From NCBI GenBank assembly GCA_934045905.1, contig OW203769.1, positions 17,019,705-17,083,704 on the forward strand: 64,000 bases of DNA. The letters run 5' to 3'. Position numbers and translations under genes: made by a program. The stretch comes from Leuctra nigra (taxonomy: Eukaryota > Arthropoda > Insecta > Plecoptera > Leuctridae). This document shows, piece after piece, positions 5,275 to 63,449 of the stretch; the stretch's first letter is position 1; the number at the start of each line of letters is the position of its first letter. Under the pieces are notes generated by a model that was given only the letters and a program-made list of their open reading frames with translations, did not search any database and was not told the DNA's origin.

Positions 5275-5615
5275 TTACAAATTATAAAGGTGATTGCGAA
5301 AAATTCTTATAGAACCTTTCAAAACAAACAATACTATATCGTCTATAAAATTTCTAATATTTACAATTGAAAAACGTCGAAAAACTCGTTACACCTTCCA
5401 TCACCTCCAATTTTCACATATACATAACTTATTCTCTGTTTTAAGCTTTAACTACCTACATATCACATAGAAATTGAACTAATTACAGTCTTTAAATGAG
5501 TTTTAATGAGTTAAAATAACCAATTAAGTACCTATTAATATCCTTTGGGAGTCTGTTGCACTCTCAAATACCTAAATTACAGTGTCCAAGGTGCATAATT
5601 TCATTGTAAAACGAA
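5275..5615. other. No gene seen
   Basis: AT-rich sequence between A5 and the satellite. The last 45 bases are the inverted partner of 2819-2865. Nothing else is recognised. Confidence 0.4.
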
Positions 5616-7681
5616 ATGTCATCATTCACGGCCTAACATCGTATCCACACGCTGCGCGCGCCGATGTGTTAACACTGTTGCCATGTGTTATGCCTGCGGA
5701 TGTTGCTTGATCACGACCCATTGTCACGCGAATGCGGGAGGAAATGTCATCATTCACGGCCTAGCAGAGTATCCACACGCTGCGCGCGCCGATGTGTTAA
5801 CACTGTTGCCATGTGTTATGCCTGCGGATGTTGCCAGATCGCGACCCATTGTCACGCGAATGCGGGAGGAAATGTCATCATTCACGGCCTAGCATCGTAT
5901 CCACACGCTGCGCGCGCCGATGTGTTTACACTGTTGCCATGTTGTTATGCCTGCGGATGTTGCCAGATCGCGACCCATTGTCACGCGAATGCGGGAGGAA
6001 ATGTCATCATTCACGGCCTAGCATCGTATCCACACGCTGCGCGCGCCGATGTGTTTACACTGTTGCCATGTTGTTATGCCTGCGGATGTTGCCAGATCGC
6101 GACCCATTGTCACGCGAATGCGGGAGGACAATGTCATCATTCACGGCCTAGCAGAGTATCCACACGCTGCGCGCGCCGATGTGTTTACACTGTTGCCATG
6201 TTGTTATGCCTGCGGATGTTGCCAGATCGCGACCCATTGTCACGCGAATGCGGGAGGAAATGTCATCAATCACGGCCTAGCAGAGTATCCACACGCTGCG
6301 CGCGCCGATGTGTTTACACTGTTGCCATGTTGTTATGCCTGCGGATGTTGCCAGATCGCGACCCATTGTCACGCGAATGCGGGAGGAAATGTCATCAATC
6401 ACGGCCTAACATCGTATCGACACGCTGCGCGCGCCGATGTGTTTACACTGTTGCCATGTTGTTATGCCTGCCGATGTTGCCAGATCGCGACCCATTGTCA
6501 CGCGAATGCGGGAGGAAATGTCATCATTCACGGCCTAGCATCGTATCCACACGCTGCGCGCGCCGATGTGTTTACACTGTTGCCATGTTGTTATGCCTGC
6601 GGATGTTGCCAGATCGCGACTCATTGTCACGCGAATGCGGGAGGACAATGTCATCATTCACGGCCTAGCATCGTATCCACACGCTGCGCGCGCCGATGTG
6701 TTTACACTGTTGCCATGTTGTTATGCCTGCGGATGTTGCCAGATCGCGACCCATTGTCACGCGAATGCGGGAGGAAATGTCATCATTCACGGCCTAGCAG
6801 AGTATCCACACGCTGCGCGCGCCGATGTGTTTACACTGTTGCCATGTTGTTATGCCTGCGGATGTTGCTTGATCACGACCCATTGCCACGCGAATGCGGG
6901 AGGAAATGTCATCATTCACGGCCTAACACCAGTATCCACACGCTGCGCGCGCCGATGTGTTTACACTGTTGCCATGTTGTTATGCCTGCCGATGTTGCCA
7001 GATCGCGACCCATTGTCACGCGAATGCGGGAGGAAATGTCATCATTCACGGCCTAGCATCGTATCCACACGCTGCGCGCGCCGATGTGTTTACACTGTTG
7101 CCATGTTGTTATGCCTGCGGATGTTGCCAGATCGCGACCCATTGTCACGCGAATGCGGGAGGACAATGTCATCATTCACGGCCTAACATCGTATCCACAC
7201 GCTGCGCGCGCCGATGTGTTTACACTGTTGCCATGTTGTTATGCCTGCCGATGTTGCCAGATCGCGACTCATTGCCACGCGAATGCGGGAGGAAATGTCA
7301 TCAATCACGGCCTAGCAGAGTATCCACACGCTGCGCGCGCCGATGTGTTTACACTGTTGTCATGTTGTTATGCCTGCGGATGTTGCTTGATCACGACCCA
7401 TTGTCACGCGAATGCGGGAGGAAATGTCATCAATCACGGCCTAGCAGAGTATCCACACGCTGCGCGCGCCGATGTGTTTACACTGTTGCCATGTTGTTAT
7501 GCCTGCGGATGTTGCCAGATCGCGACCCATTGTCACGCGAATGCGGGAGGAAATGTCATCAATCACGGCCTAGCATCGTATCCACACGCTGCGCGCGCCG
7601 ATGTGTTTACACTGTTGCCATGTTGTTATGCCTGCGGATGTTGCCAGATCGCGACCCATTGTCACGCGAATGCGGGAGGAA
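5616..7681. repeat. Satellite array, about 129 bp x 16
   Basis: Units start at ATGTCATCA: 5616, 5744, 5872, 6001, 6131, 6260, 6389, 6518, 6648, 6777, 6906, 7036, 7166, 7295, 7424 and 7553. Each is 128-130 bp and much richer in GC and CpG than the flanks (CGCTGCGCGCGCCGATGTG). Variants (CATCA[A/T]TCACGG, GCCTGC[G/C]GATG, GGAGGA[AA/CA]ATG, and TTGATCACG for CAGATCGCG) are shared among non-adjacent units, pointing to local shuffling. Because 129 is divisible by three, long open frames run through it on the plus strand, but they are a by-product of periodicity and change frame at 128- and 130-bp units. Confidence 0.95.
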
Positions 7682-8008
7682 ATGGAATGTCGAAGCAGCT
7701 CGAGAGGAAGATTGACTTGCGGTGGCAGATGCGTGGGAGTTGTTTTCTATGGAGTTTGAGATGAACTTTGACAATAGGTGACGTGTGTTAGATTGGGAGG
7801 GGGGGGGGGGGGCGATGCCGCAGACTTGTGTGTCGGGAGGATGATAAATGTTTGGCAACAATGTTTGTGTACGCGGTTAGTGAAGAGTGAAATATGCTGG
7901 TCAATGTTTTTAATCAAGATCAAGACATTTTTCAACACATTTAATTTTGTGTCTTGACTTTTCTACTAGATTATATAATATTACAATGTAATACATATTT
8001 AATAATGC
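7682..8008. other. No gene; G14 tract
   Basis: Unique sequence after the satellite. A run of 14 G lies at 7799-7812. No coding or RNA gene is seen. Confidence 0.4.
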
Positions 8009-12800: not shown

Positions 12801-12816
12801 TAGACCCTGCCATTAG

Positions 12817-13203
12817 GAGGCCTGAGTAGTGAGCGTGGCCTTGAAGAGTTTTTAATCGATTTTTATCAATATCTTTTACATTATGTAATTTTTAACAAAA
12901 AAGGGCTTTGTACGCGTATTCAGAGAGCAGTTTAATGAAAATAATTTCATAGTTTGGAATAAGATATTAGTTTTATTTTGTCCAACAGATGTTAAGTGCC
13001 CGAAAATTAGTAAAATTATGGCACTAAACATCTGTTGGACAAAATAAAACTAATAACTTATTCCAAACTATGAAATGACTTTCATTGAACTGCTCTCTGA
13101 ATACGCGTACAAAGCCCTATTTTGTTAACAATTACATTGGTAAAAGATATTGATAAAAATCGATTAAAAAACTCATCAAGGTCCAACTCACTACCCAGCC
13201 GTC
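12817..13203. mobile_element. Foldback TTAA MITE family C, copy C1
   Basis: Arms of about 180 bp are inverted copies that meet around a short centre near 13000. The arm core reads TTTTGTCCAACAGATGTT. Flanks are TTAG (12813-12816) and TTAA (13204-13207). Other copies are C2 (21004-21160, left half) and C3 (49739-51424, split by B3). C1 gives the empty site for B3. No coding sequence. Confidence 0.85.
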
Positions 13204-13573
13204 TTAATAAATTCAACTGATTGCATATAACCGATTGCAGCGCCTACCTAGCGGCAGAATAACGCCCTATCAGTATCCATGTGGAACGCACACGGCCGCC
13301 TATGTTTTCATGCCAGGGTTGTGAAAGCTAAAGAGTCGAGAAGTTTTGAATAATATTCGCGGAGGAAAGATGGAATATATTTCCTTGGATTTCTATCGGC
13401 TGACGAGGCGGAATGGGGGGACGTTAACTCTGCCGCGGGTCGTTTTAATTCGAGACATTTCCGTCCTCGACTTCAGGATTCCGCTGAAATTGGAGATAAT
13501 GTTTAAGTGAGATTGAAAGAGTCCTCTCCTCGTCTTTTTATTACACTCGAAGGTTTTCTGTTTGTACTTTTCT

Positions 13574-18673: not shown

Positions 18674-19153
18674 TGTTATTGTAAAATATTGTATTTTAAA
18701 CACTTTATATTTTTTTGCATATTTCTTCATTTCAGTTTGATTTTAGTGATATCTGCATAGAATACTGTTTGGTAGATTATAAACTACTTTTTATGTTTTT
18801 TACAAGTCGGTTGCGGAGAAGATGGCCTCAGTATTTATTGATGGGTTTCACCACAACTGGATAACATGATTAAATAAGTTGACTAAGCATATTTTCTTTA
18901 CCACTTCTTTTCAGTGCTGATTATGATTCTTTTATCAAGCAGCGTATTTTATGGTGATTTCAGAGTTACTAAGACATCAAATACATCTAATCAAATGCAA
19001 AAGTCATAATGCATTTATATCAAATGTATATAATTGTCATTTCCGCAATTCCCCATTTCATCTTCAACATCTCCGCAGCATCTGTCAATCCGCAGCTTTG
19101 ATATCAGTAAAAGCATCCACATTGTGAGAAAACGATGTTCTGAGATTGCACGT

Positions 19154-19175
19154 CCCCCCCCCCCCCCCCCCCCCC
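19154..19175. repeat. Poly-C tract (22)
   Basis: An uninterrupted run of 22 C, one of about a dozen long G/C homopolymers in the window. Confidence 0.95.
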
Positions 19176-19381
19176 TCCTCACCCCACAAGCTCGATGTAT
19201 CAATTACTTCGTATGATGCCCGCGGCGACTGTGGCGCTCTCTCGGATATGAAATAAACAGCGAATCAGTTCGTGTCCCGAGACTAACAGATGCTGACGTC
19301 ACAGTGCAATCAGAAATACAAATCAAATGGAGACGGAGGATTGGCGAGCTGCTTTGAGGGATTAAAGATGATGAAGTGAAT

Positions 19382-19454
19382 AGCTGGTTGAATCGGGGCT
19401 CGAACCGGGGATCACTTGCCGGGCGAGAGCTCTACCTACTGAGCTACCCAGTCA
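19382..19454 (-). pseudogene. tRNA-like sequence (SINE head or tRNA pseudogene)
   Basis: The minus strand has a perfect A-box-like TAGCTCAGTAGG, a D stem (GCTC/GAGC), and a B-box-like GGTTCGAGCCC. The anticodon loop area (CTCGCCCGGCAAGTGAT) lacks U33 and its stem has mismatches; the T stem and acceptor also mispair. The closest layout is a tRNA-Ala-type body. A working tRNA is unlikely; a Pol III promoter from a tRNA-derived SINE is the better reading. Confidence 0.5.
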
Positions 19455-19928
19455 GAACGCACTGATGAGGGATCTACGAAGATTATAGAATGTAGAAGCG
19501 AACAAGAGTCTCAAGGTACTCTTATGACACTTGCTGTGATTTATTTTGTTCTTGCCAGCATTGTTAAGGTCATAACCGTTTATCTTAAGCTGGTGCAAGC
19601 GTGAGCGATTTTGCTGCATTTTGTAGATTTTTTTTGGATACGATTGGTGACAAAATGGGTTGATGAAATGATTTGAAATTTTAATCGTGATTAGATAAAA
19701 TACAAACTAAGGGTTATCCTTTGATACATTTTTAATTTTTTGTTTCGGTAATTAGTAATAATAAGTACATTTTTGGTGAAAAAATAGATATTTTCTTGTC
19801 TCGCTGGGTGCCGTAAAAAATTTAATTTTAAAAATGTGCCAAGTGATCCTAAGTTTGTCTTTCATCTAATCATGATTAAAATCTGTTAAAATAAACAGTG
19901 CGGTATGAGTTCTAATAGTATTTATTTT

Positions 19929-19970
19929 GAGCGACGTTTCGAGTGAACTGTGTCACCCCTCATCAGGCTC
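19929..19970 (-). ncRNA. Hammerhead ribozyme-like motif, left arm
   Basis: On the minus strand: GAGC, CTGATGA, a stem-loop strand pair GGGGTGA / TCACTC with one bulged G, GAAAC, GTC, GCTC. This has the conserved CUGAUGA and GAAA core, a GUC cleavage triplet and a four-base-pair stem I (GAGC/GCTC). Stem III is minimal, as in hammerheads that work as dimers through an ACGU palindrome. Activity is not shown. Confidence 0.6.
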
Positions 19971-20031
19971 GGAAATGTAACATTTTAAGAAAGAGAAAAC
20001 AAAAAAACATTTTTTAAAATGTTACATTTCC

Positions 20032-20073
20032 GAGCCTGATGAGGGGTGACACAGTTCACTCGAAACTTCGCTC
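20032..20073 (+). ncRNA. Hammerhead ribozyme-like motif, right arm
   Basis: Inverted copy of the left-arm motif. The core CTGATGA and GAAA are intact, but the sequence after it reads GAAACTTC instead of GAAACGTC. The ACGU needed for a dimeric stem III is therefore lost, and this copy is probably weaker or inactive. Confidence 0.5.
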
Positions 20074-20395
20074 AAAATAAATACTATTAGAACTCATACC
20101 GCACTGTTTATTTTAACTTATAATGATGTGTTCTGAAACATTACGAATTGCTATATTAAAATCTGTGATCAACTGGTTCACGGGTTTGGTCTCCAATCGT
20201 ATAGGAAATTTCATCCTTTTGCGCGGATTTGTTGAATAACCGGCGCCTAATTAACAAGGCACCAAGTAAAAATGAAAAAGTGCTACTAATATACAATCAG
20301 ACGGATCATGTGAACATCCCATCAAAGTTACACCCACTTATGAAACAATGTTTATCTCAATTTTCTTAAACGGCCGAGCGCTTGCGCCACCTTAA

Positions 20396-21003
20396 GTTTT
20401 TCACACATATTAAATGGGTACAAACGATTTGGTGTATCTAATAAAGCAGTAAAAAAATGGGTTTTATTTAAAACCCCGGGGGGAAAGCTTTGTGAATCCG
20501 AGCCCTGTTGTGTTGCTCGTGTCTGTAGCACTTGAGACCTCTTTAACTAAATAAGAAAGTCGTTTGGCGCCATCTCGCGAGAAATAACCCGTTGTAACGG
20601 CAAAGCTGTTAGACTTGATCTGAGTCGAGTGTGTCGTCTGTCCGTTGACCCGGAATAAGCGTCGAGTCTTCCGAAAGTAAACATTATTAACTTTCCAAAG
20701 AGCTTAGTTGCTTTCTTCGGGGACGAGCTCTTTGCTAATCAACTGCATTGCGCACAGCACTTGCGCACAACGCTTTCTTAGAGGAAGATTATTTCAGATT
20801 GAAACATAATGTTGAGAACCATTCACGTTTTATAACTAAATGCAAGCCAATTCAATAAGGTCTGGGACCTTATTCTATAAGGAATAGGAAATCATTTCGG
20901 TATGAAATTGTTTCAAATCAATGTTATTCGTATGGCAGTAAATGATCATATGATGTCAGACCGAATGATTTCGTTTTCGTTATATAATAGGGGATTCGTA
21001 TGT
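20396..21003. other. No gene seen
   Basis: Single-copy-looking sequence with mixed composition. No supported frame. Confidence 0.3.
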
Positions 21004-21160
21004 ATAGTGAGATTGGCCTTGAAGAGTTTTTTAATCGATTTTTATCAATATCTTTTACCAATGTAATTGATAATAAAATAAGGTTTTGTACAAATCTTCA
21101 GAACTGTTCAATGAAAATAATTTCATAGCTTGAAATGGGTTTTTTTAGTTTTATTTCGTC
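21004..21160 (+). mobile_element. Family C MITE, left half (C2)
   Basis: Matches the left arm of C1 from GTGAGATTGGCCTTGAAGAG to TTTTATTTCGTC, then diverges. The right arm and both TTAA flanks are absent. Confidence 0.65.
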
Positions 21161-21667
21161 ACACAGAAGTTTCTCCAGAAGTAAAGCAGAGTGTAAACTA
21201 TAAATCAACTAAACCAACAAATATACAGGATAATAATTAGTCTTTCGTCGAAAACATCCGTTACTGTGTAATACGAAATGAACACAAAAAAGGTTACGAG
21301 ACAACCAAGTGAAAACTAAAACTGACCTGACATCTATGTCAACAATATGGCCGCCCCGCAAATAAAAGTAAAGAAAACACTCTCTTTGTCAGTGTAGATG
21401 TCGAACAAAGAAGTCCGAGCTGCTGTGAATAGTTGTGCGAAAACTCCCGTGGAGTGGAGTGATCGTGAACTGAGCGAGGCATATTATTTCTGAACGCATC
21501 CGCAACGCAGATAAGCGACGTAGTAATTGCGCCCCCGGCGGCTAATTGACGAATTAAATGCGAATTGTTTTTTAAACCCATGTTGCCTGAGAGCGCTTCG
21601 CCGGAGTTTTGAGTTCGTAGCCCGGCTTTTGTTGCGACTAAACTTCTGCCGCACAAAACACGGTGGT

Positions 21668-22509: not shown

Positions 22510-22848
22510 GATTTCAAACTCTGGGAAAGATGTTTGTTATAAACAAAAATCCTCCAACAAGTGGAGCCATGAAATGAAGATTCCATTTCTAAAGATTGCA
22601 CTTCATCTAGGTAATATAATGTGAAATTCTCGTCGAAATTGTAAATGCTCTTAAAAAGTTCTTCACCTCCCGAAAACAGCACTCATCTTCCTGAAGTGCA
22701 GAACAATTTCCAGCTCCTCGGTTTTGCTTTTCAATGAAGAGGGCGAACCTCAATATAACGAACCTGCATAAAGGATAGGCTGTGAGTTGATCATTATTCC
22801 CTTGTCCCGGCGCACTCGAGGAGGCTGTGGCTTTTCATCGGCCGCATT

Positions 22849-25800
22849 CCACGGCCTTCTATTGTCCCATCGCTCGCGAGTGGCTGACGGTGGCGCTGGT
22901 GGCGGCGAGAACGAGTACTACAGGCGACCAAGATGGCGGCTTAGTGATTCCACGGCCTTCTATTGTCCCATCGCTCGCGAGTGGCTGACGGTGGCGCTGG
23001 TGGCGGCGAGAACGAGTACTACAGGCGACCAAGATGGCGGCTAAGTGATTCCACGGCCTTCTATTGTCCCATCACTCGCGAGTGGCTAACGGTGGCGCTG
23101 GTGGCGACGAGAACGAGTACTACAGGCGACCAAGATGGCGGCTTAGTGATTCCACGGCCTTCTATTGTCCCATCGCTCGCGAGTGGCTGACGGTGGCGCT
23201 GGTGGCGGCGAGGACGAGCATCAGGCGACCAAGATGGCGGCTAAGTGATTCCACGGCCTTCTATTGTCCCATCGCTCGCGAGTGGCTGACGGTGGCGCTG
23301 GTGGCGGCGAGAACGAGTACTACAGGCGACCAAGATGGCGGCTTAGTGATTCCACGGCCTTCTATTGTCCCATCGCTCGCGAGTGGCTGACGGTGGCGCT
23401 GGTGGCGGCGAGAACGAGTACTACAGGCGACCAAGATGGCGGCTAAGTGATTCCACGGCTTTCTATTGTCCCATCGCTCGCGAGTGGCTGACGGTGGCGC
23501 TGGTGGCGGCGAGAACGAGTACTACAGGCGACCAAGATGGCGGCTAAGTGATTCCACGGCTTTCTATTGTCCCATCGCTCGCGAGTGGCTGACGGTGGCG
23601 CTGGTGGCGGCGAGAACGAGTACTACAGGCGACCAAGATGGCGGCTAAGTGATTCCACGGCCTCCTATTGTCCCATCGCTCGCGAGTGGCTGACGGTGGC
23701 GCTGGTGGCGGCGAGAACGAGTACTACAGGCGACCAAGATGGCGGCTAAGTGATTCCACGGCCTTCTATTGTCCCATCGCTCGCGAGTGGCTGACGGTGG
23801 CGCTGGTGGCGGCGAGAACGAGTACTACAGGCGACCAAGATGGCGGCTAAGTGATTCCACGGCCTTCTATTGTCCCATCGCTCGCGAGTGGCTGACGGTG
23901 GCGCTGGTGGCGGCGAGAACGAGTACTACAGGCGACCAAGATGGCGGCTAAGTGATTCCACGGCCTCCTATTGTCCCATCGCTCGCGAGTGGCTGACGGT
24001 GGCGCTGGTGGCGGCGAGAACAAGTACTACAGGCGACCAAGATGGCGGCTAAGTGATTCCACGGCCTTCTATTGTCCCATCACTCGCGAGTGGCTGACGG
24101 TGGCGCTGGTGGCGGCGAGAACGAGTACTACAGGCTAGCAAGATGGCGGCTAAGTGATTCCACAGCTTTCTATTGTCCCATCGCTCGCGAGTGGCTGACG
24201 GTGGCGCTGGTGGCGACGAGAACGAGTACTACAGGCTAGCAAGATGGCGGCTAAGTGATTCCACAGCTTTCTATTGTCCCATCGCTCGCGAGTGGCTGAC
24301 GGTGGCGCTGGTGGCGACGAGAACGAGTACTACAGGCGACCAAGATGGCGGCTAAGTGATTCCACGGCCTCCTATTGTCCCATCGCTCGCTAGTGGCTGA
24401 CGGTGGCGCTGGTGGCGACGAGAACGAGTACTACAGGCGACCAAGATGGCGGCTAAGTGATTCCACGGCCTTCTATTGTCCCATCGCTCGCGAGTGGCTG
24501 ACGGTGGCGCTGGTGGCGACGAGAACGAGTACTACAGGCGACCAAGATGGCGGCTAAGTGATTCCACGGCCTTCTATTGTCCCATCACTCGCGAGTGGCT
24601 GACGGTGGCGCTGGTGGCGGCGAGAACGAGTACTACAGGCGACCAAGATGGCGGCTAAGTGATTCCACGGCCTCCTATTGTCCCATCGCTCGCTAGTGGC
24701 TGACGGTGGCGCTGGTGGCGGCGAGAACGAGTACTACAGGCGACCAAGATGGCGGCTAAGTGATTCCACGGCCTCCTATTGTCCCATCGCTCGCGAGTGG
24801 CTAACGGTGGCGCTGGTGGCGACGAGAACGAGTACTACAGGCGACCAAGATGGCGGCTAAGTGATTCCACAGCTTTCTATTGTCCCATCGCTCGCGAGTG
24901 GCTGACGGTGGCGCTGGTGGCGGCGAGAACGAGTACTACAGGCGACCAAGATGGCGGCTTAGTGATTCCACGGCCTTCTATTGTCCCATCGCTCGCGAGT
25001 GGCTGACGGTGGCGCTGGTGGCGGCGAGAACGAGTACTACAGGCGACCAAGATGGCGGCTTAGTGATTCCACGGCCTTCTATTGTCCCATCGCTCGCGAG
25101 TGGCTGACGGTGGCGCTGGTGGCGGCGAGAACGAGTACTACAGGCGACCAAGATGGCGGCTTAGTGATTCCACGGCCTTCTATTGTCCCATCGCTCGCGA
25201 GTGGCTAACGGTGGCGCTGGTGGCGACGAGAACGAGTACTACAGGCGACCAAGATGGCGGCTTTGTGATTCCACGGCCTTCTATTGTCCCATCGCTCGCG
25301 AGTGGCTGACGGTGGCGCTGGTGGCGGCGAGAACGAGTACTACAGGCGACCAAGATGGCGGCTTAGTGATTCCACGGCCTTCTATTGTCCCATCGCTCGC
25401 GAGTGGCTGACGGTGGCGCTGGTGGCGGCGAGAACGAGTACTACAGGCGACCAAGATGGCGGCTAAGTGATTCCACGGCCTTCTATTGTCCCATCGCTCG
25501 CGAGTGGCTGACGGTGGCGCTGGTGGCGGCGAGAACGAGTACTACAGGCGACCAAGATGGCGGCTAAGTGATTCCACGGCCTTCTATTGTCCCATCGCTC
25601 GCGAGTGGCTGTCGGTGGCGCTGGTGGCGGCGAGAACGAGTACTACAGGCGACCAAGATGGCGGCTTTGTGATTCCACGGCCTTCTATTGTCCCATCGCT
25701 CGCTAGTGGCTGACGGTGGCGCTGGTGGCGGCGAGAACGAGTACTACAGGCGACCAAGATGGCGGCTAAGTGATTCCACGGCCTCCTATTGTCCCATCGC

Positions 25801-26280
25801 TCGCGAGTGGCTAACGGTGGCGCTGGTGGCGACGAGAACGAGTACTACAGGCGACCAAGATGGCGGCTAAGTGATTCCACGGCCTCCTATTGTCCCATCG
25901 CTCGCGAGTGGCTAACGGTGGCGCTGGTGGCGACGAGAACGAGTACTACAGGCGACCAAGATGGCGGCTAAGTGATTCCACGGCCTCCTATTGTCCCATC
26001 GCTCGCGAGTGGCTGACGGTGGCGCTGGTGGCGACGAGAACGAGTACTACAGGCGACCAAGATGGCGGCTAAGTGATTTCACAGCTTTCTATTGTCCCAT
26101 CGCTCGCGAGTGGCTGACGGTGGCGCTGGTGGTGACGAGAACGAGTACTACAGGCGACCAAGATGGCGGCTTTGTGATTCCACGGCCTCCTATTGTCCCA
26201 TCGCTCGCGAGTGGCTGACGGTGGCGCTGGTGGCGGCGAGGACGAGCATTACAGGCTAGCAAGATGGCGGCAAAGTGACG
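22849..26280. repeat. Satellite array, 101 bp x 34
   Basis: Units start at CCACGGCC and variants: 22849, 22950, 23051, 23152 (99 bp), then every 101 bp from 23251 to 26180. The unit is GC-rich and holds CTCGCGAG, GGTGGCGCTGGTGGCG, GAGTACTACAGG and CAAGATGGCGGC. Variants (CACAGCTTTC, CGCTAGTGG, GGCGACGAG, TTTGTGATT) recur in blocks, suggesting higher-order duplication. 101 is not divisible by three; the many 60-75-codon frames starting at ATGGCG-like or CCCATCG positions are artefacts. Confidence 0.97.
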
Positions 26281-36851: not shown

Positions 36852-37903
36852 TAATAATAATGATGATGATGATGATGATTCATCTTCCAATAAATTCCGC
36901 GGTCTCCGCCACAGCCTAAACGGCTGGGTTGATTGACCCGAAATTTTCACCACATATACAGCTTGTCTGCCTGATGATACCTTGCCCTTATGAATTTTTT
37001 GTGCCGCTGTTTTGAAACCGGAAGTGACGTCATATCTCAAAAACGGCTTAACCGATCGGAACGAAATTTGCGCCAATCGATTCAGACGGTCCTCTTTATG
37101 AAATAACAATAGTTAAATTAAAGTTTTTTAATTACTGAAACCGGAAATGACGTCATAGTTTAGCGAAATCTGCTTAAATTCACTTCCCTTTATATAAAAA
37201 CCAACTAAATATTCAGAAGGCTTATAATGAAATATTAGTATTTATATACATATTAATACCTACAATGTGTAAGAGCTTTCAGCCGCCATTTTGAAAACCG
37301 GAAGTGATGCCATATCTCGAAAACGGCTGGACCTATTGGAACGATGCTTTCGCAATTCTTCATGGCATATCACTTTAAGTTTAAATTTAGCTCCAAACAA
37401 TATTTTTTTAGTAACTAATTCGGAAATGGCGTATTTTTTTAAAGGAATTAGCCATTGTTGCCCTAATAAGTTTCACAAGTTGTGTAAATAAACTAAAAAA
37501 AGAAGTGATATCCCCATAAAAAACACTCCGTGTAAAAAAACAGCCAAGTCTCTTCAACTAAAAAAAAAATTATGAAATCTAAAAATTCTGCACTGAAACG
37601 TAGTGATATCAAAAAATGAGCCAAGTCAAAACTTTATTTGACAATTAAAAAATACTTGGCGCATCGTTTTTTTAGGGCATTGTAGGTATAGGTACTATAA
37701 GTATATGTATTTATATCTAGCCTATACTTCTAAGCTATTTATATACACGATGCGCCAAGTATTTTTTAATTTTCAAATAAAGTTTTGACTTGGCTCATTT
37801 TTTGATATCACTACGTTTCAGTGCAGAATTTTTAGATTTCATAATTTTTTTTTTAGTTGAAGAGACTTGGCTGTTTTTTTACACGGAGTGTTTTTTATGG
37901 GGA
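36852..37903 (-). mobile_element. Helitron-like family B copy B4 (3' tip missing)
   Basis: The minus-strand 5' end is TCCCCATAAAAAACACTCC (to 37903), preceded by A. It starts with the foldback at 37511-37903 and continues through the same interior as B1, including TGACGTCA at 37025 and 37148. The 3' hairpin is replaced by an (ATG)n tract at about 36857-36880 next to A13. Confidence 0.6.
37511..37903. repeat. Long foldback forming the 5' end of B4
   Basis: Arms of about 156 bp (37511-37666 and 37748-37903) pair nearly perfectly and are almost identical to those of B1, including the loop. This suggests recent shared origin or gene conversion. Confidence 0.85.
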
Positions 37904-39159
37904 TTCTTACTAGTGGAACCTCGGCTCTGTTGAGAATATATGTTTAATAATAATTCCTCGTACATGAACGCATGCGAAAACAGTGAGTGACGTAACAGAC
38001 TTTAAACTCTCTTCGTGCAATGTCACCACACATTATCTGACAATCGATAGCCCGAAGTGTTCGTATACAACAATTACTTCAATATAAATGAAAATTATTG
38101 TTCGAACTATATTGGAAAATGGAAATACCAGGGAGAGGCGAAGCTGCGACCACATATGAAACCCACACAGAACATCGGACCACATAGTTCAGTCGCCAAC
38201 CAGCAGACTGGTTTAAACATAACAAAGAGTTAGCATTCATTATATCCGCCACTTCATTAATTACACAATAATAATTACAATTCATAAATCATTATAATTA
38301 CAATGTAGCTGTTCGTTGTAAACATTTTGTCAATTCGCGCGAATTGTTCCAGTTTTCACAATCAACTATATTCATTAATTGAGCAACCTAATTATTCTTG
38401 TTACTGGTTGTAGGAAATTATGTAACTGTGTTCAATTATATAGCGTTTTTATTATGTCGCTTGATTTGAATGAAATTAATAACAAGATTTAAGAATTGTT
38501 ATTGATTAATCATTTAAAATGTATTCTAGAATATCTGTTTATTGCAGGTCAAACAATGTTACATATCCTTAAGAGTGGCCTACTACCTAACTTATAATTT
38601 CCGATTCTGCTGGAGTTCGCTTCACGGCTATGCGGAATAACATAGCAGTGATTCGGTATTGAAAAAAGGGGAGGAATGAAAGTAATAGAAAAGGGTCACC
38701 AAGCCCATTTTTTCACAAAGGTCTGCCAATGGGGTTGTTCACTGCCATTTGCTCTCACTCGCAGCGCTAGCGGCATTGGAGGTGTCTCTCTCTGATTGGT
38801 TGGTCTCTGAATCCAAGATCTCTGAATCAAACTCCCGCCAAGGTTTAAAAACCTTCCATTCCGCTAGATGCATTTTGATTGGCTCTCTCCCGGACGATTA
38901 GAACAGCAGCGCCATCTACAATAGTTTTGCGTGAACGACCCCATTGATTTCTAGCAACATTGCTGCCTCTTGATCTCATCAGAAAATTATTTATAGTTGC
39001 ATGTGATGTCATCTCATTGTTGCCTGCTACCATCTTGATGGCACGCAAAATATCTGTAATTCTCTGCTTTTTCGATAATATTTTAAAGTTAATAGGTACC
39101 TAGGAAATTGTATAGGCTCCGGAGATATTAGTAGGAAGAAGAATCACTCACATTACAAA
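37904..39159. other. No gene seen
   Basis: AT-rich with short frames only. Nothing recognised. Confidence 0.3.
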
Positions 39160-40162: not shown

Positions 40163-40606
40163 GGTTTTACGGTGCGTTGGGTGTAACTTTAATAGGATGT
40201 TCACTTGATCAGTCCGATTGTATATTAGTAGCACTTTTTTATTTTTGCTTCTTGCCTTGTTAATTGGGGCCGGTTATTCAACAAAACCGCGCAAAACCAA
40301 TTGACCTCAAATTTTAATTATGATTAGATAAATAACAAACTAAAGGTTATCACTTGGCATAATTTTTTAAAGTTAAATTTCATACGGCATCCAGCGAGAC
40401 AAGAAAGTAGACCACTTTTCACCAAAATCAACTAATTATTACTAATTAATAAGGCAAAATATGAAAAATGTACCAAGTGATAACCCTACAAATGGTTAAA
40501 ATTTCAAAACATTTCGTCAACCCATTTTGTCTCATATCGTATCCTGCAAAAAAAGTGCCTGCTGCAAGCGGCAAAATCGCTCGCGCTGGAACCACCTTAA
40601 TAATTA
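40163..40606 (-). mobile_element. TTAA MITE family D, copy D2
   Basis: Inverted relative to D1: GGTGTAACTTTAATAGGATG at the left, GCTCGCGCTGGAACCACC then TTAA (40607-40610) at the right. The left TIR is missing. Confidence 0.65.
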
Positions 40607-41262: not shown

Positions 41263-41266
41263 TTAA

Positions 41267-41776
41267 GGTGGTGAAAGCGCGAGCGATCTTTTTTATTGCA
41301 GGCACTTTTTTGGATTGGAGACAAAATGGGTTGACGAAATGATTTGAAATATGATTAGATAAAAGACAAACTTAGGGTTATCACTTGGTACATTTTTTTG
41401 TTTTGTTTTGTTAATTAGTAATAATTAGTTGTTTTTTATGAAAAAATTTCTATTTTTTGTCTTGCTGATAGTGCAGTATGAAAATGTATTTAAAAAATGT
41501 GCCAATTGTGATAACCCTAAGTTTGCCTTTTTCTAATCATGATTAAAATTTGAGATCAATCGACAATTGGTTAACTGGTTTGGTCTCCAATCGTGTCGGA
41601 AATTTCATAGTTTTGCGCGGTTTTGTTGTATAATTAACAAGGCAGGAAACAAAAATTAAAGTGTACTACTAATATACATTCAGACTGATCATGTGAACAT
41701 CCTATCAAAGTTACACTCACTTATGAAACAATGTTTCTCTTCTTATTTTCTAAAACGGCCGAGCGCTTGTATCACC
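41267..41776. mobile_element. TTAA MITE family D, complete copy D3
   Basis: TTAA at 41263-41266 and 41777-41780. TIRs GGTGGTGAAAGCGCGAGCG and CGAGCGCTTGTATCACC. The imperfect foldback interior carries AGGGTTATCACTTGG and TGTGATAACCCT. Reference copy for the empty site of the insertion in D1. Confidence 0.82.
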
Positions 41777-42172
41777 TTAATGTGGTCTATTTGGTATCTT
41801 CGACATTATGTAAGTCATAGAATTAAGTCGGCAGTGCTAACAAGACGTTATAACACTCTAATAACATCCGACGGAAGTGACGTAGTAAGTGATAACAAGT
41901 GTACGACTCATCGGACTCCTGTGAACCCGATCATTTGGTCCACAGCTCTTCGCATCCTTAGTCCGCTCGGCTGGGCTAATTCCAATAGACTCGTCGTCAA
42001 TTGTCGCGTTGACGTGTGTAGTTCCACATCACGAGATACAGCCGCCTGAGAGCATTCGTTGAGCAAGATCGAGATTCTGTATCCACAGGTAGAAGGACGG
42101 AAGTTCACTCTCGAGATGTTGCGTTGCATACTTATGGAATTTTGCAATCAAGCTTAATTGCCATTTGAATGA

Positions 42173-49738: not shown

Positions 49739-51424
49739 GAGGGCTGAGTAGTGAGCGTGGCCTTGAAGAGTTTTTAATCGATTTTTATCAATATCTTTTA
49801 CCAATGTAATTGTTAACAAAATAGGGCTTTTTACGAGTATTCAGAACAGTTCAATGAAAATAATTTCATAGTTTGGAATAAGTTATTAGTTTTACCCATA
49901 AAAAACACTCCGTGTAAAAATACCAGCCAAGTCTCTTCAACTAAAAAAAAAATAGAAGAAATCTAAAAATTCAGCACTGAAAAGTAGTGATATCAAAAAA
50001 AGGCCAAGTCAAAACTTTTAAAAATTACTTGGCGCATCGTGCATATAAATAGTATAGAAGTAGGTCGGTAATCAAATATACTCATCTATACATAAAATAT
50101 ATCTATAATCCCATAGAAAAACGATGCGCCAAGTAATTTTTAAAAGTTTTGACTTGGCCTTTTTTTGATATCACTACTTTTCAGTGCTGAATTTTTAGAT
50201 TTCTTCTATTTTTTTTTTAGTTGAAGAGACTTGGCTGGTATTTTTACACGGAGTGTTTTTTATGGGATATCATTCCTTTTTTCAGTTTATTCTTACAATT
50301 TGTAGCATATATTGTGGAACCAAAGACTATAATTCCTTTAAAAAAATACGCCTTTTTGATTTGGTTGCTAAGAAAAGTTGTGCTTGTTACTATGTATATG
50401 CTATAAATAATATGCTATAAAGTATAGCGGAAGTTTCGTTCCAATTGGTCCAGCCGTTCTCGAGTTATGGCATCACTTCCGGTTTTCAAAATGGCGGCTG
50501 ACTTCACTGCCACCTAAAATTTGTGTCTTTAAATGCTATGTAACATTATAAGCCTTCTGAATATGTAGTTATTGTTATAAGAGATGATTTCATTCAAATT
50601 TGGCATTTTTATGACGTCATTTCCGGTTTCGGTAAAAGTACATTTCTATTTTGACTGTTGATATTTCATTGAGAAGACCATCCGAATCGTTTGGCGCTAG
50701 TTTCGTCCCAATTGGTCCATCAGTTTTTAAGATATGACGTCACTTCCGGTTTCAAAATGGTGGCACAAAAAATTCGTAAGGACAAGGTATCATCAGACGC
50801 CAAAAGTGCATATATATGGTAAAAATTTCAGATCGATCGGCTCAGCCGTTTAGGCTGTGGCGCTGTCAACAGTGTTTCCTGATATCATCAGAATCATCAT
50901 CTTCAGAATCAGAAAGTGGTGTAATTTTACATATTTCACGGCCCTCTAGCACGAAAATGACATACCCTATTGTTCCCAAATTCGGTATATGGGGTGGGGT
51001 GGGCCATAGCTCGAAATTAAGATATTTTGCAACAATGTGAGATTTTCCAATTTTAAGATCCAGTAGGCCGAAAATGCCATGTTGTTGCTTACAGTAAAAG
51101 TGGTTGGTCTGCTCCTCAGTTTATTAGGCATTTACGGTATGTTGAGTGAGTGTGAGTGTACGGTACGACTTGGCTGGGTGGAGCGACCGCTCCACTAGAT
51201 TTTGTCCAACAGATGTTGAGTGCCATAATTTTACTTATTTTCTGGCACTAAACATCTGTAGGACAAAGTAAATCTAATAAACCATTACAAGCTATGGAAT
51301 TATTTTCATTGAACTGTTCTGAATACTCGTACAAAGCCTTATTTTGTTAACAATTACATTGGTAAAAGATTTTGATAAAAATCGATTAAAAACTCTTCAA
51401 GGTCAAACTCACTACCCAGCCGTC
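49739..51424. mobile_element. Foldback TTAA MITE family C, copy C3 (split by B3)
   Basis: TTAA at 49735-49738 and 51425-51428. Left arm from GAGGGCTGAGTAGTGAGC, right arm ending CTCACTACCCAGCCGTC. The two parts (49739-49894 and 51200-51424) together equal one C element; B3 occupies the middle. Confidence 0.85.
49895..51199 (+). mobile_element. Helitron-like family B, full-length copy B3
   Basis: Inserted in C3 between GTTTTA and TTTTGTCC; C1 shows GTTTTATTTTGTCC uninterrupted, so the insertion made no target duplication and lies between A and T. It starts CCCATAAAAAACACTCC (the TC expected at the very tip is lost) with a foldback at 49895-50266 (146-bp arms) and ends GTGGAGCG-AC-CGCTCCACTAGA. 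The interior has TGACGTCA at 50612 and 50735. No ORF. Confidence 0.72.
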
Positions 51425-51760
51425 TTAATAGATAATTTCCTTGTGTACCATATAAACGCAAGAAAAAGTGGGGTAGCCGAACTAATTTCCACGATATATC
51501 ACTTTATAAATGCTAGTTAGCCTTAACACACCTATCCCTCAGTCCTCTTAAAGAGCATTTTCAAGAATAGAGATTCCTCGTAATTTTCTTGGTCCTCATA
51601 TGAATTCTTAATTAAATTTAAAAATGTATGTGGTGCATAACAAAATTACGACATAAATAACTGTATTAAAACAAGAAGAGATTCTATCCGTTAATATACT
51701 ATTTAAAACCACGTACTATTGGATCCCTGGTATTACTATTAAAAACATATTAATTAAATC

Positions 51761-51792
51761 AATATTTCGACGATGTATCGTCTTAATCAGGC
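51761..51792 (-). ncRNA. Degenerate hammerhead-like motif
   Basis: Minus strand: CTGATTA, stem II GACGA/TCGTC with a four-base loop TACA, GAAAT. Stem II is perfect and GAAA is present, but the core reads CTGATTA rather than CTGATGA and stem I is not evident. It resembles Penelope-type terminal sequence, decayed. Confidence 0.3.
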
Positions 51793-52138
51793 AACTGAAC
51801 AATTTTCATATGAAGAAGAAGAAAGAAAGAAAACCTTAAAGTCCCTAAATGCCGTTGATCTTACACTTTTATGCTCCCTGTAATGGACTTAAGAAGATAA
51901 ATAAATCATTACGAAAAATCAATGTAAAAAGTAAACATTATTTGACACAGTAACACGATTGTTATAGAGTAGATAATGATGGTCCTACTCCTAGCATGAG
52001 CGATAGAAAGCACGCCGACGGAAATGATGCCGAGCGGCTGGCAATGTAATGACGTCATTTCCGTCGGCTTGATGACGTCACCAAGTGTCATGGCGGCCGT
52101 GCCACGGGGTCTGACCGATGTGTGTTTCTTTGTTGCAG

Positions 52139-62660: not shown

Positions 62661-62813
62661 ATGTGCATATAATGTAAAATTATAATACCGTCTCTTAATT
62701 GTCAACAATTGATAACAATATGGGATTCAGTTTGATATTCTTACATATAGCCATGGTAACAGAAACCCAATTAATTGTGATTTGTATGAATCTCTTGTGC
62801 GAAAACAGTTGGA

Positions 62814-62822
62814 AGATATAAG
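62814..62822 (+). promoter_or_regulatory. Candidate TATA box
   Basis: GATATAAGG lies 31-39 bp upstream of the start codon at 62853. A TCATC initiator-like element about 25-30 bp downstream would give a 5' UTR of only about 10-15 nt. Inference from sequence only. Confidence 0.5.
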
Positions 62823-62852
62823 GAAATCGAAGCGTCAAATCATCGTAGAAAG

Positions 62853-63449
62853 ATGAATTTCTGCTCTCTGCTCGTTTGTCTCGTGACGTTCACGACGACC
62901 GACGGTAAATACCTGAACGACGTCCCCTTCCAAGCCATCTCGGCGCCCGTCGGGTCGTCGGACATGGCGGAATCCGACGCCAGGACGTCGATCGTCGACC
63001 AGTACATGAGCGAGGGTCGCTACTTCCCGATCGAGGCGGCGAACATGGGCGACACCGACGCCAGATCGGCGATCGACGGACATTATTTGAACGAAGATCG
63101 CTACCATCGCATTGCGGCGCCGATCAAAGCGTCAATCATGGCGGGAAACGACGCTCCGATGGACGGGAATTATGTGAATCAAGCTATGCCGTTGACGGTG
63201 AAGGCGGCCGAAGGTGACGGCCATTACGCGGGAAGCTACGCCGCCGCGGCGTCGGAAAGCGACGGCCATTACTCGAATGACGGCCGCTACATGGGGTCGC
63301 CGGCGGTGGTGGAGGCGTCGAACAGGGCCCTCAACGACGCTCGGGCGATAATGGACGCCATGCGTGGCGACGGCAACGTCGGCGTCAATGAGGCGTCGCA
63401 TGACGGCGTCGAGGGGTCGCCGCGTGAAAACAATATGGTTCGTGGATAG
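62853..63449 (+). CDS. Secreted DGxY-repeat protein (198 aa), possibly cuticle-type
   Basis: Complete intronless frame with GC-rich third positions in AT-rich surroundings. Residues 1-16 (MNFCSLLVCLVTFTTT) look like a signal peptide; cleavage before DGKY is likely. The mature protein has no cysteine and is built of degenerate units of about 15-32 residues that start D-(G/Q)-x-Y: residues 17, 49, 75, 104, 122 and 137. The first units add a second (G/D)RY about seven residues later and end near DA-R-(S/T). The C-terminal 45 residues lack the motif. The DGxY/DGRY pattern and signal peptide resemble low-complexity insect cuticle proteins, but there is no Rebers-Riddiford chitin-binding consensus, so a salivary or other secreted role is equally open. 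The start is chosen for the signal peptide and the TATA box just upstream. Antisense frames here are mirrors of its codon bias. Confidence 0.85.
   Translation: MNFCSLLVCLVTFTTTDGKYLNDVPFQAISAPVGSSDMAESDARTSIVDQYMSEGRYFPIEAANMGDTDARSAIDGHYLNEDRYHRIAAPIKASIMAGNDAPMDGNYVNQAMPLTVKAAEGDGHYAGSYAAAASESDGHYSNDGRYMGSPAVVEASNRALNDARAIMDAMRGDGNVGVNEASHDGVEGSPRENNMVRG

Follow-up and report, generated by a model that had tools for sequence, protein, structure and literature searches.

A one-tailed, head-to-head pair of Penelope-like 3′ ends in the genome of Leuctra nigra and its probable origin by two-sided priming at a staggered cut

The window analysed here, a stretch of 64,000 nt of the Leuctra nigra genome (GCA_934045905.1, contig OW203769.1, positions 17,019,705 to 17,083,704 of the forward strand), contains at 19886–20154 an insertion of 268–269 bp, whose boundary is ambiguous by one base. 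The insertion lies between two copies of an 11-bp target-site duplication, ATTAAAATCTG, at 19875–19885 and 20155–20165 (both on the + strand); a twelfth base, T, is common to target and insert, and the direct repeat ATTAAAATCTGT accordingly spans 19875–19886 and 20155–20166. Inside it, an inverted repeat of 108 nt (19885–19992 and 20010–20117, 98% complementary, with a spacer of 17 nt) is followed by 37 nt (20118–20154) that belong to the insertion and fall outside the repeat. The preliminary description had given arms of 104 bp with a single mismatch, which is correct for their inner part and not for the whole, as the arms differ at two of 108 positions (19989/20013 and 19935/20067). The site without the insertion is preserved in the same window as a paralog of the host repeat at 41263–41780 (+): positions 19585–19885 align to 41263–41552 and 20155–20395 to 41542–41780, and the overlap of the two alignments equals the 11-bp duplication, of which the paralog holds a single copy, one base different from that of the insertion. 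The insertion is also absent from another paralog, of greater divergence (40178–40600, − strand), which was taken from the match listing rather than from a base-by-base alignment. The direct repeat and the empty paralog thus confirm the 269-bp insertion with an 11-bp duplication that had been proposed at the outset. The near-perfect hairpin without protein was also correctly recognized, since 19886–20154 folds at −184.8 kcal/mol against a mean of −47.4 for shuffled sequences (0 of 200 shuffles as good), its arms are 98% complementary and it contains no open reading frame.

Judged by sequence, both arms represent the 3′-terminal pLTR region of a Penelope-like element (PLE), because the same sequence lies behind reverse transcriptase (RT) or GIY-YIG coding sequence in relatives elsewhere in the genome. 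In the 536-Mb assembly the arm recurs in at least 87 matches (40 of 305 candidates scored), and at two of the loci, L036 and L059, it stands directly behind GIY-YIG coding sequence. The two Pfam signals fall on different relative copies, RVT_1 on L050 (31.7 bits, cut-off 29.6) and GIY-YIG on L059 (20.5 bits, under the cut-off of 22.6), where a 336-aa frame resembles PLE-type proteins; the GIY-YIG piece of L036 gave no Pfam match. A total of 198 protein homologues was obtained; among the 120 listed, most carry RT Pfam domains and those that are named come mostly from insects, with two from reptiles. The Penelope-like origin suspected initially is therefore upheld, and the search for longer copies with RT and GIY-YIG domains recovered L036, L059 and L050, the GIY-YIG domain scoring below cut-off. 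One PLE family of this genome is large and young, with 1278 first-look candidates and 42 listed matches that are 97–100% identical. In these terms, the left arm (19886–19992, −) is an antisense PLE 3′ end that begins, tailless, at a first RT start site (site 1); the right arm (20010–20117, +) is a sense 3′ end running up to site 1 and continued, at this end of the insertion only, by the 37-nt tail (20118–20154, +), which extends from site 1 to a second site (site 2). The spacer between them (19993–20009) would hold the junction of two cDNAs. The tail measures 37 nt in the family to which the window copy belongs, 32 nt in family 2, about 24–30 nt in family 3 and about 28 nt in family 4, and chance identity with the target duplication makes these limits imprecise; family labels were assigned by sequence and not by tree, family 4 being close to family 2. 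Minimal double-ended insertions like that of the window were also seen in family 2 (GIY-YIG about 62% identical), at L088 (C8:8487800–8488800) and L089 (C8:14457800–14458700), with strings of 10 and 12 bp shared by their ends.

A short inverted-repeat element with a target duplication could also be a DNA transposon of MITE or fold-back type, moving as a unit with a hammerhead-like sequence inside, and one version of the insertion does recur in 14 of 20 fetched arm loci. These 14 loci, however, have the same left flank and are thus a single older insertion amplified within a larger repeat, which was counted once (as L010; L011–L016, L018, L019, L021 and L025–L028 are this insertion, and L002–L008 are duplicate places under other identifiers). 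Moreover, the centres vary between independent insertions, which leaves no fixed unit moved by terminal inverted repeats, and the sequence derives from the 3′ terminus of an RT element. We thus regard a DNA transposon as extremely improbable.

Each arm contains a predicted minimal type I hammerhead motif, an identification supported by the analyses below. The left motif (19929–19970, −) reads outward to the left and has an intact core and GAAACGTC; the right motif (20032–20073, +), with GAAACTTC, reads outward to the right. The two are therefore divergent, each running 5′ to 3′ from centre to edge, and do not face inward as had been stated. Conserved core and cleavage triplet are present in both; in the right motif a derived G to T change at 20067, beside the triplet, breaks the self-complementary ACGT. 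Rfam returned no hammerhead at E ≤ 1 for region 18900–21200, nothing at gathering score for the window and nothing at E ≤ 10 for a single arm of the relative L036, whereas a covariance model trained on the genome's other Penelope families, with the window's own family left out, detected both motifs at 38.1 and 32.3 bits (rough E values of 6e-8 and 2.4e-6). Further support comes from covariation of stems I and II over six family sequences: 90% of cells are paired (0 of 500 shuffles) and the covariation score is 0.653 versus 0.244 (0 of 500 shuffles; slid versions, 0.042–0.167), while measures counting pairs and pair types were matched by 29 and 28 of 500 shuffles in these six sequences. The type I assignment made earlier thus stands on the left-out model and on stem covariation, and a covariance-model search yields it with relatives and not with Rfam. 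Across the six families the core is nearly invariant, with U4 replaced by A in family 2 and a more decayed fetched copy in L111. The hammerhead has an extra base after A9, and a stem II drawn without it fitted more poorly; in families 2, 3, 5 and 6 this base is U, creating an ATG. In 20 further PLE loci a text scan found a GAAACG motif of the same design in 12 and the covariance model added L101, the remaining seven giving nothing at E ≤ 1 with that model. Elsewhere in the window, a weak hammerhead-like match at 51757–51794 (−), which reads GAAATATTG and whose core is damaged, scores 14.2 bits (E 0.23) under model R2 and 13.2 bits (E 0.4) under model R1; it may be what is left of another PLE.

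In PLEs, minimal hammerheads of type I have reportedly been described by Cervera and de la Pena in 2014 and by Lunse and colleagues in 2017. According to the available parts of two reports, they have a short or absent stem III, reside in the pLTRs and are thought to cleave as dimers (PMC7761336, PMC6155905). Unlike this usual arrangement, the window pair is inverted and not tandem, with a sense and an antisense motif in one transcript, so that the usual cis dimer would not be expected. A retrozyme, in which tandem hammerhead repeats give circular RNA, was also considered and set aside, as the motifs are inverted. Whichever strand is transcribed, the antisense arm precedes the sense hammerhead and the duplex would be very stable; the hairpin of the window copy is thus more likely to mask the ribozymes than to activate them. 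That the hairpin is kept for a role of its own, as a small-RNA source or a regulated ribozyme, could be read from the strong fold and from weak Rfam microRNA precursor matches in 18900–21200, every one below gathering score, as long hairpins may give; yet paralogs of the host repeat lack the insertion and one of the two ribozymes is mutated, and we hold such a role to be highly improbable.

Tails are distributed among the relatives in a strict manner. In all 35 resolved double-ended PLE insertions, out of 38 examined, the tail (about 24–37 nt) is present on exactly one end and the other end stops at site 1. These 35 comprise 32 resolved among 35 insertions tried, which were hand-picked because both ends were in view, and three added later (L121/L128, L122/L050 and L126, of which the last depends on an inverted piece just 6 nt long, flanked by a duplication of 14 bp). 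The window's family, with two subfamilies, contributes 18 of the 32, family 2 contributes 12 (among them a tandem insertion, L086/87), and families 3 and 4 one each. Outer ends fall into two discrete classes, all 45 listed matches finishing at 177–190 or 212–214 of 214 (40 of 297 candidates scored). The longest string common to both ends measures 10–16 nt in 29 of the 32 insertions (30 with the right end of L022 corrected), against a mean of 5.7 and a maximum of 14 in mismatched end pairs, 2.7% of which share 9 nt or more; L017 has no clear duplication and that of L020 is imperfect. DNA-seeded insertions were found with tail-bearing queries, which biases them toward at least one tail; unaffected by this are 13 of the 32, which derive from 16 inverted pairs of a protein search blind to tails, and 13 one-tailed cases out of 13 would arise under an independent 50:50 choice with p of about 1e-4.

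Several loci were left out of this count: L065/66, L069/70 and L092/93, whose left end was not found; the tandem insertions L080/81, L082/83 and L084/85, whose left end lies beyond the stretch and whose right ends are tailed, tailless and tailed, respectively; L091 (one end read), L023 (left end without site 1) and L055/L056; L030 and L036–L047, with a single end read or complex, and C123:12724; and L049, L053 and L054, which appear sense-only and tailed within the stretch read. Double-ended structure is therefore not a property of all insertions. In the inverted GIY-YIG pairs L065/L066 and L069/L070 the left piece enters another, common sequence, apparently another retroelement. The stronger proposition that every tailless end pairs with an inverted tailed end failed: of eight tailless ends chosen from listed matches and traced inward, three had an inverted tailed partner and five had neither a partner nor a shared string of 8 nt or more.

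The relatives are also biased in orientation, since among the 150 matches listed of 795 candidates, GIY-YIG neighbours no more than 6 kb apart were head-to-head (−,+) in 15 cases, tandem in 10 and tail-to-tail (+,−) in none. Head-to-head arms would equally be produced by self-priming, in which a folded-back cDNA serves as its own, antisense template; this is the interpretation offered for rotifer Penelope elements in the available part of PMC3846280, where palindromic junctions are reported. In our set, the centres of the window copy and of four other insertions are near-symmetric, with inner ends no more than 12 nt apart (5 of 21), and L064 has a palindromic junction at 1421–1510 together with an internal deletion in one arm. 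Against self-priming, 15 of 21 insertions have over 20 nt between their inner ends, with a maximum of 1541 nt, and none of the 35 resolved insertions has the same start site at both outer ends; we consider it improbable. The window copy by itself is compatible with fold-back and two-sided priming alike, as its inner ends lie 152 and 140 nt inward of the tail end and are thus only 12 nt apart. In L064, junction and deletion together suggest a template jump.

We propose instead that the insertion is, very probably, a dead-end product of a PLE, made of two cDNAs primed from both sides of a staggered cut. A cut about 11 bp wide would have been made in a pre-existing repeat, and both 3′ overhangs would have primed reverse transcription on PLE RNA, the left-end cDNA beginning at the internal site 1, without a tail, and the right-end cDNA at site 2, 37 nt further downstream, which would give the tail. 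Both cDNAs would have ended early, some 20–30 nt upstream of the hammerhead, and then been joined centrally, leaving an inverted repeat in head-to-head orientation, flanked by the target duplications. An origin from two cDNAs, one primed on either side, would account at once for the orientation, the duplication, the tails and the variable centres. The hammerhead would be a conserved part of the PLE RNA that was carried along, here probably masked by the hairpin and with one of its two copies mutated. Near-identical arms are what copying of near-identical RNAs at insertion would produce, and the conversion that the preliminary description offered as one of two alternatives is then not needed. 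Cleaved RNA was rejected as the usual template, as 38 of 42 cDNA arms cross the hammerhead cleavage site; one inner end, in L029, falls within one base of the cut, a single case that does not count as evidence.

In LINE-1 twin priming, too, the two sides of a break prime on RNA, which gives an inverted 5′ part. The window copy resembles it in that both sides would prime and differs in that both cDNAs span the same 3′ region of the RNA, so that two template molecules, or a multimeric RNA, would be needed. Closer to the present case is Poseidon_Ac (PAc) of Anolis carolinensis, which has a minimal hammerhead with GAAACGUC and a start codon at stem II, and whose protein cuts and extends both target strands in vitro, two internal RT start sites bounding the genomic tail (PMC11167929, in the part available). 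Families 2, 3, 5 and 6 likewise have an ATG at the stem II place where the anole ORF starts, whereas in the window's family the frame from the hammerhead ATG soon reaches a stop. In the same part of that report, no strand difference in start site is reported, and neither coupling of the two sites nor a one-tail-per-insertion rule is described for this in vitro system; our pattern, by contrast, is read from genomic insertions. Together with the one-tail pattern, the head-to-head bias and the unequal inner ends, the anole results in vitro make two-sided priming fit better than self-priming. In the rotifer Adineta vaga, Pen2a_Av has inverted pLTRs, mostly head-to-head, the examples shown there having duplications of 8–10 bp, and a tail of 31 bp is "optionally present" on one inverted pLTR of elements of this type (available part of PMC3846280). 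The window copy is like Pen2a_Av in its inverted head-to-head pLTR ends, its duplication and its tail on one end, and unlike it in consisting of two 3′ ends only, with no coding sequence; moreover, where the rotifer tail is optional, exactly one end is tailed in 35 of 35 insertions here.

As to why there is exactly one tail, our guess is a complex in which two RNAs occupy non-equivalent positions. More specifically, and as a tentative suggestion that we think rather unlikely to be right, two RNAs and two enzyme subunits might form a paired complex in which copying of one RNA always begins at site 1, on one side of the cut, and copying of its partner at site 2, on the opposite side. Under such an arrangement the main task of the self-complementary ACGU of the hammerhead might be to keep the paired templates in contact and not to cleave them, a doubtful extension to which the reading of 38 of 42 arms through the cleavage site led us. 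Inverted pLTRs, a tail on one pLTR and minimal hammerheads in PLEs are already published. In the open literature searched, including the available parts of PMC8969392 and PMC12910113, we found neither a one-tail rule based on counts nor an account that derives inverted PLE copies from two-sided priming in vivo; an earlier statement of either is possible in Craig 2021, Cervera 2014, Lunse 2017 or Evgen'ev & Arkhipova 2005. The one-tail count bears at once on PLE integration, on the frequency of inverted copies and on the role of the hammerhead, and 35 of 35 is a simple quantitative constraint for models of two-sided priming and of self-priming alike.

The window also contains two tandem arrays, one of a 101-bp unit repeated 34 times (22846–26278, 97%) and one of a 129-bp unit repeated 16 times (5613–7684, 96%), as well as palindromic repeats of about 400 bp, possibly MITE-like, at 1888–2285, 12812–13208, 37510–37904 and 49895–50266. 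At 62790–63449 (+), an open frame of 219 aa resembles a secreted protein with repeated motifs.
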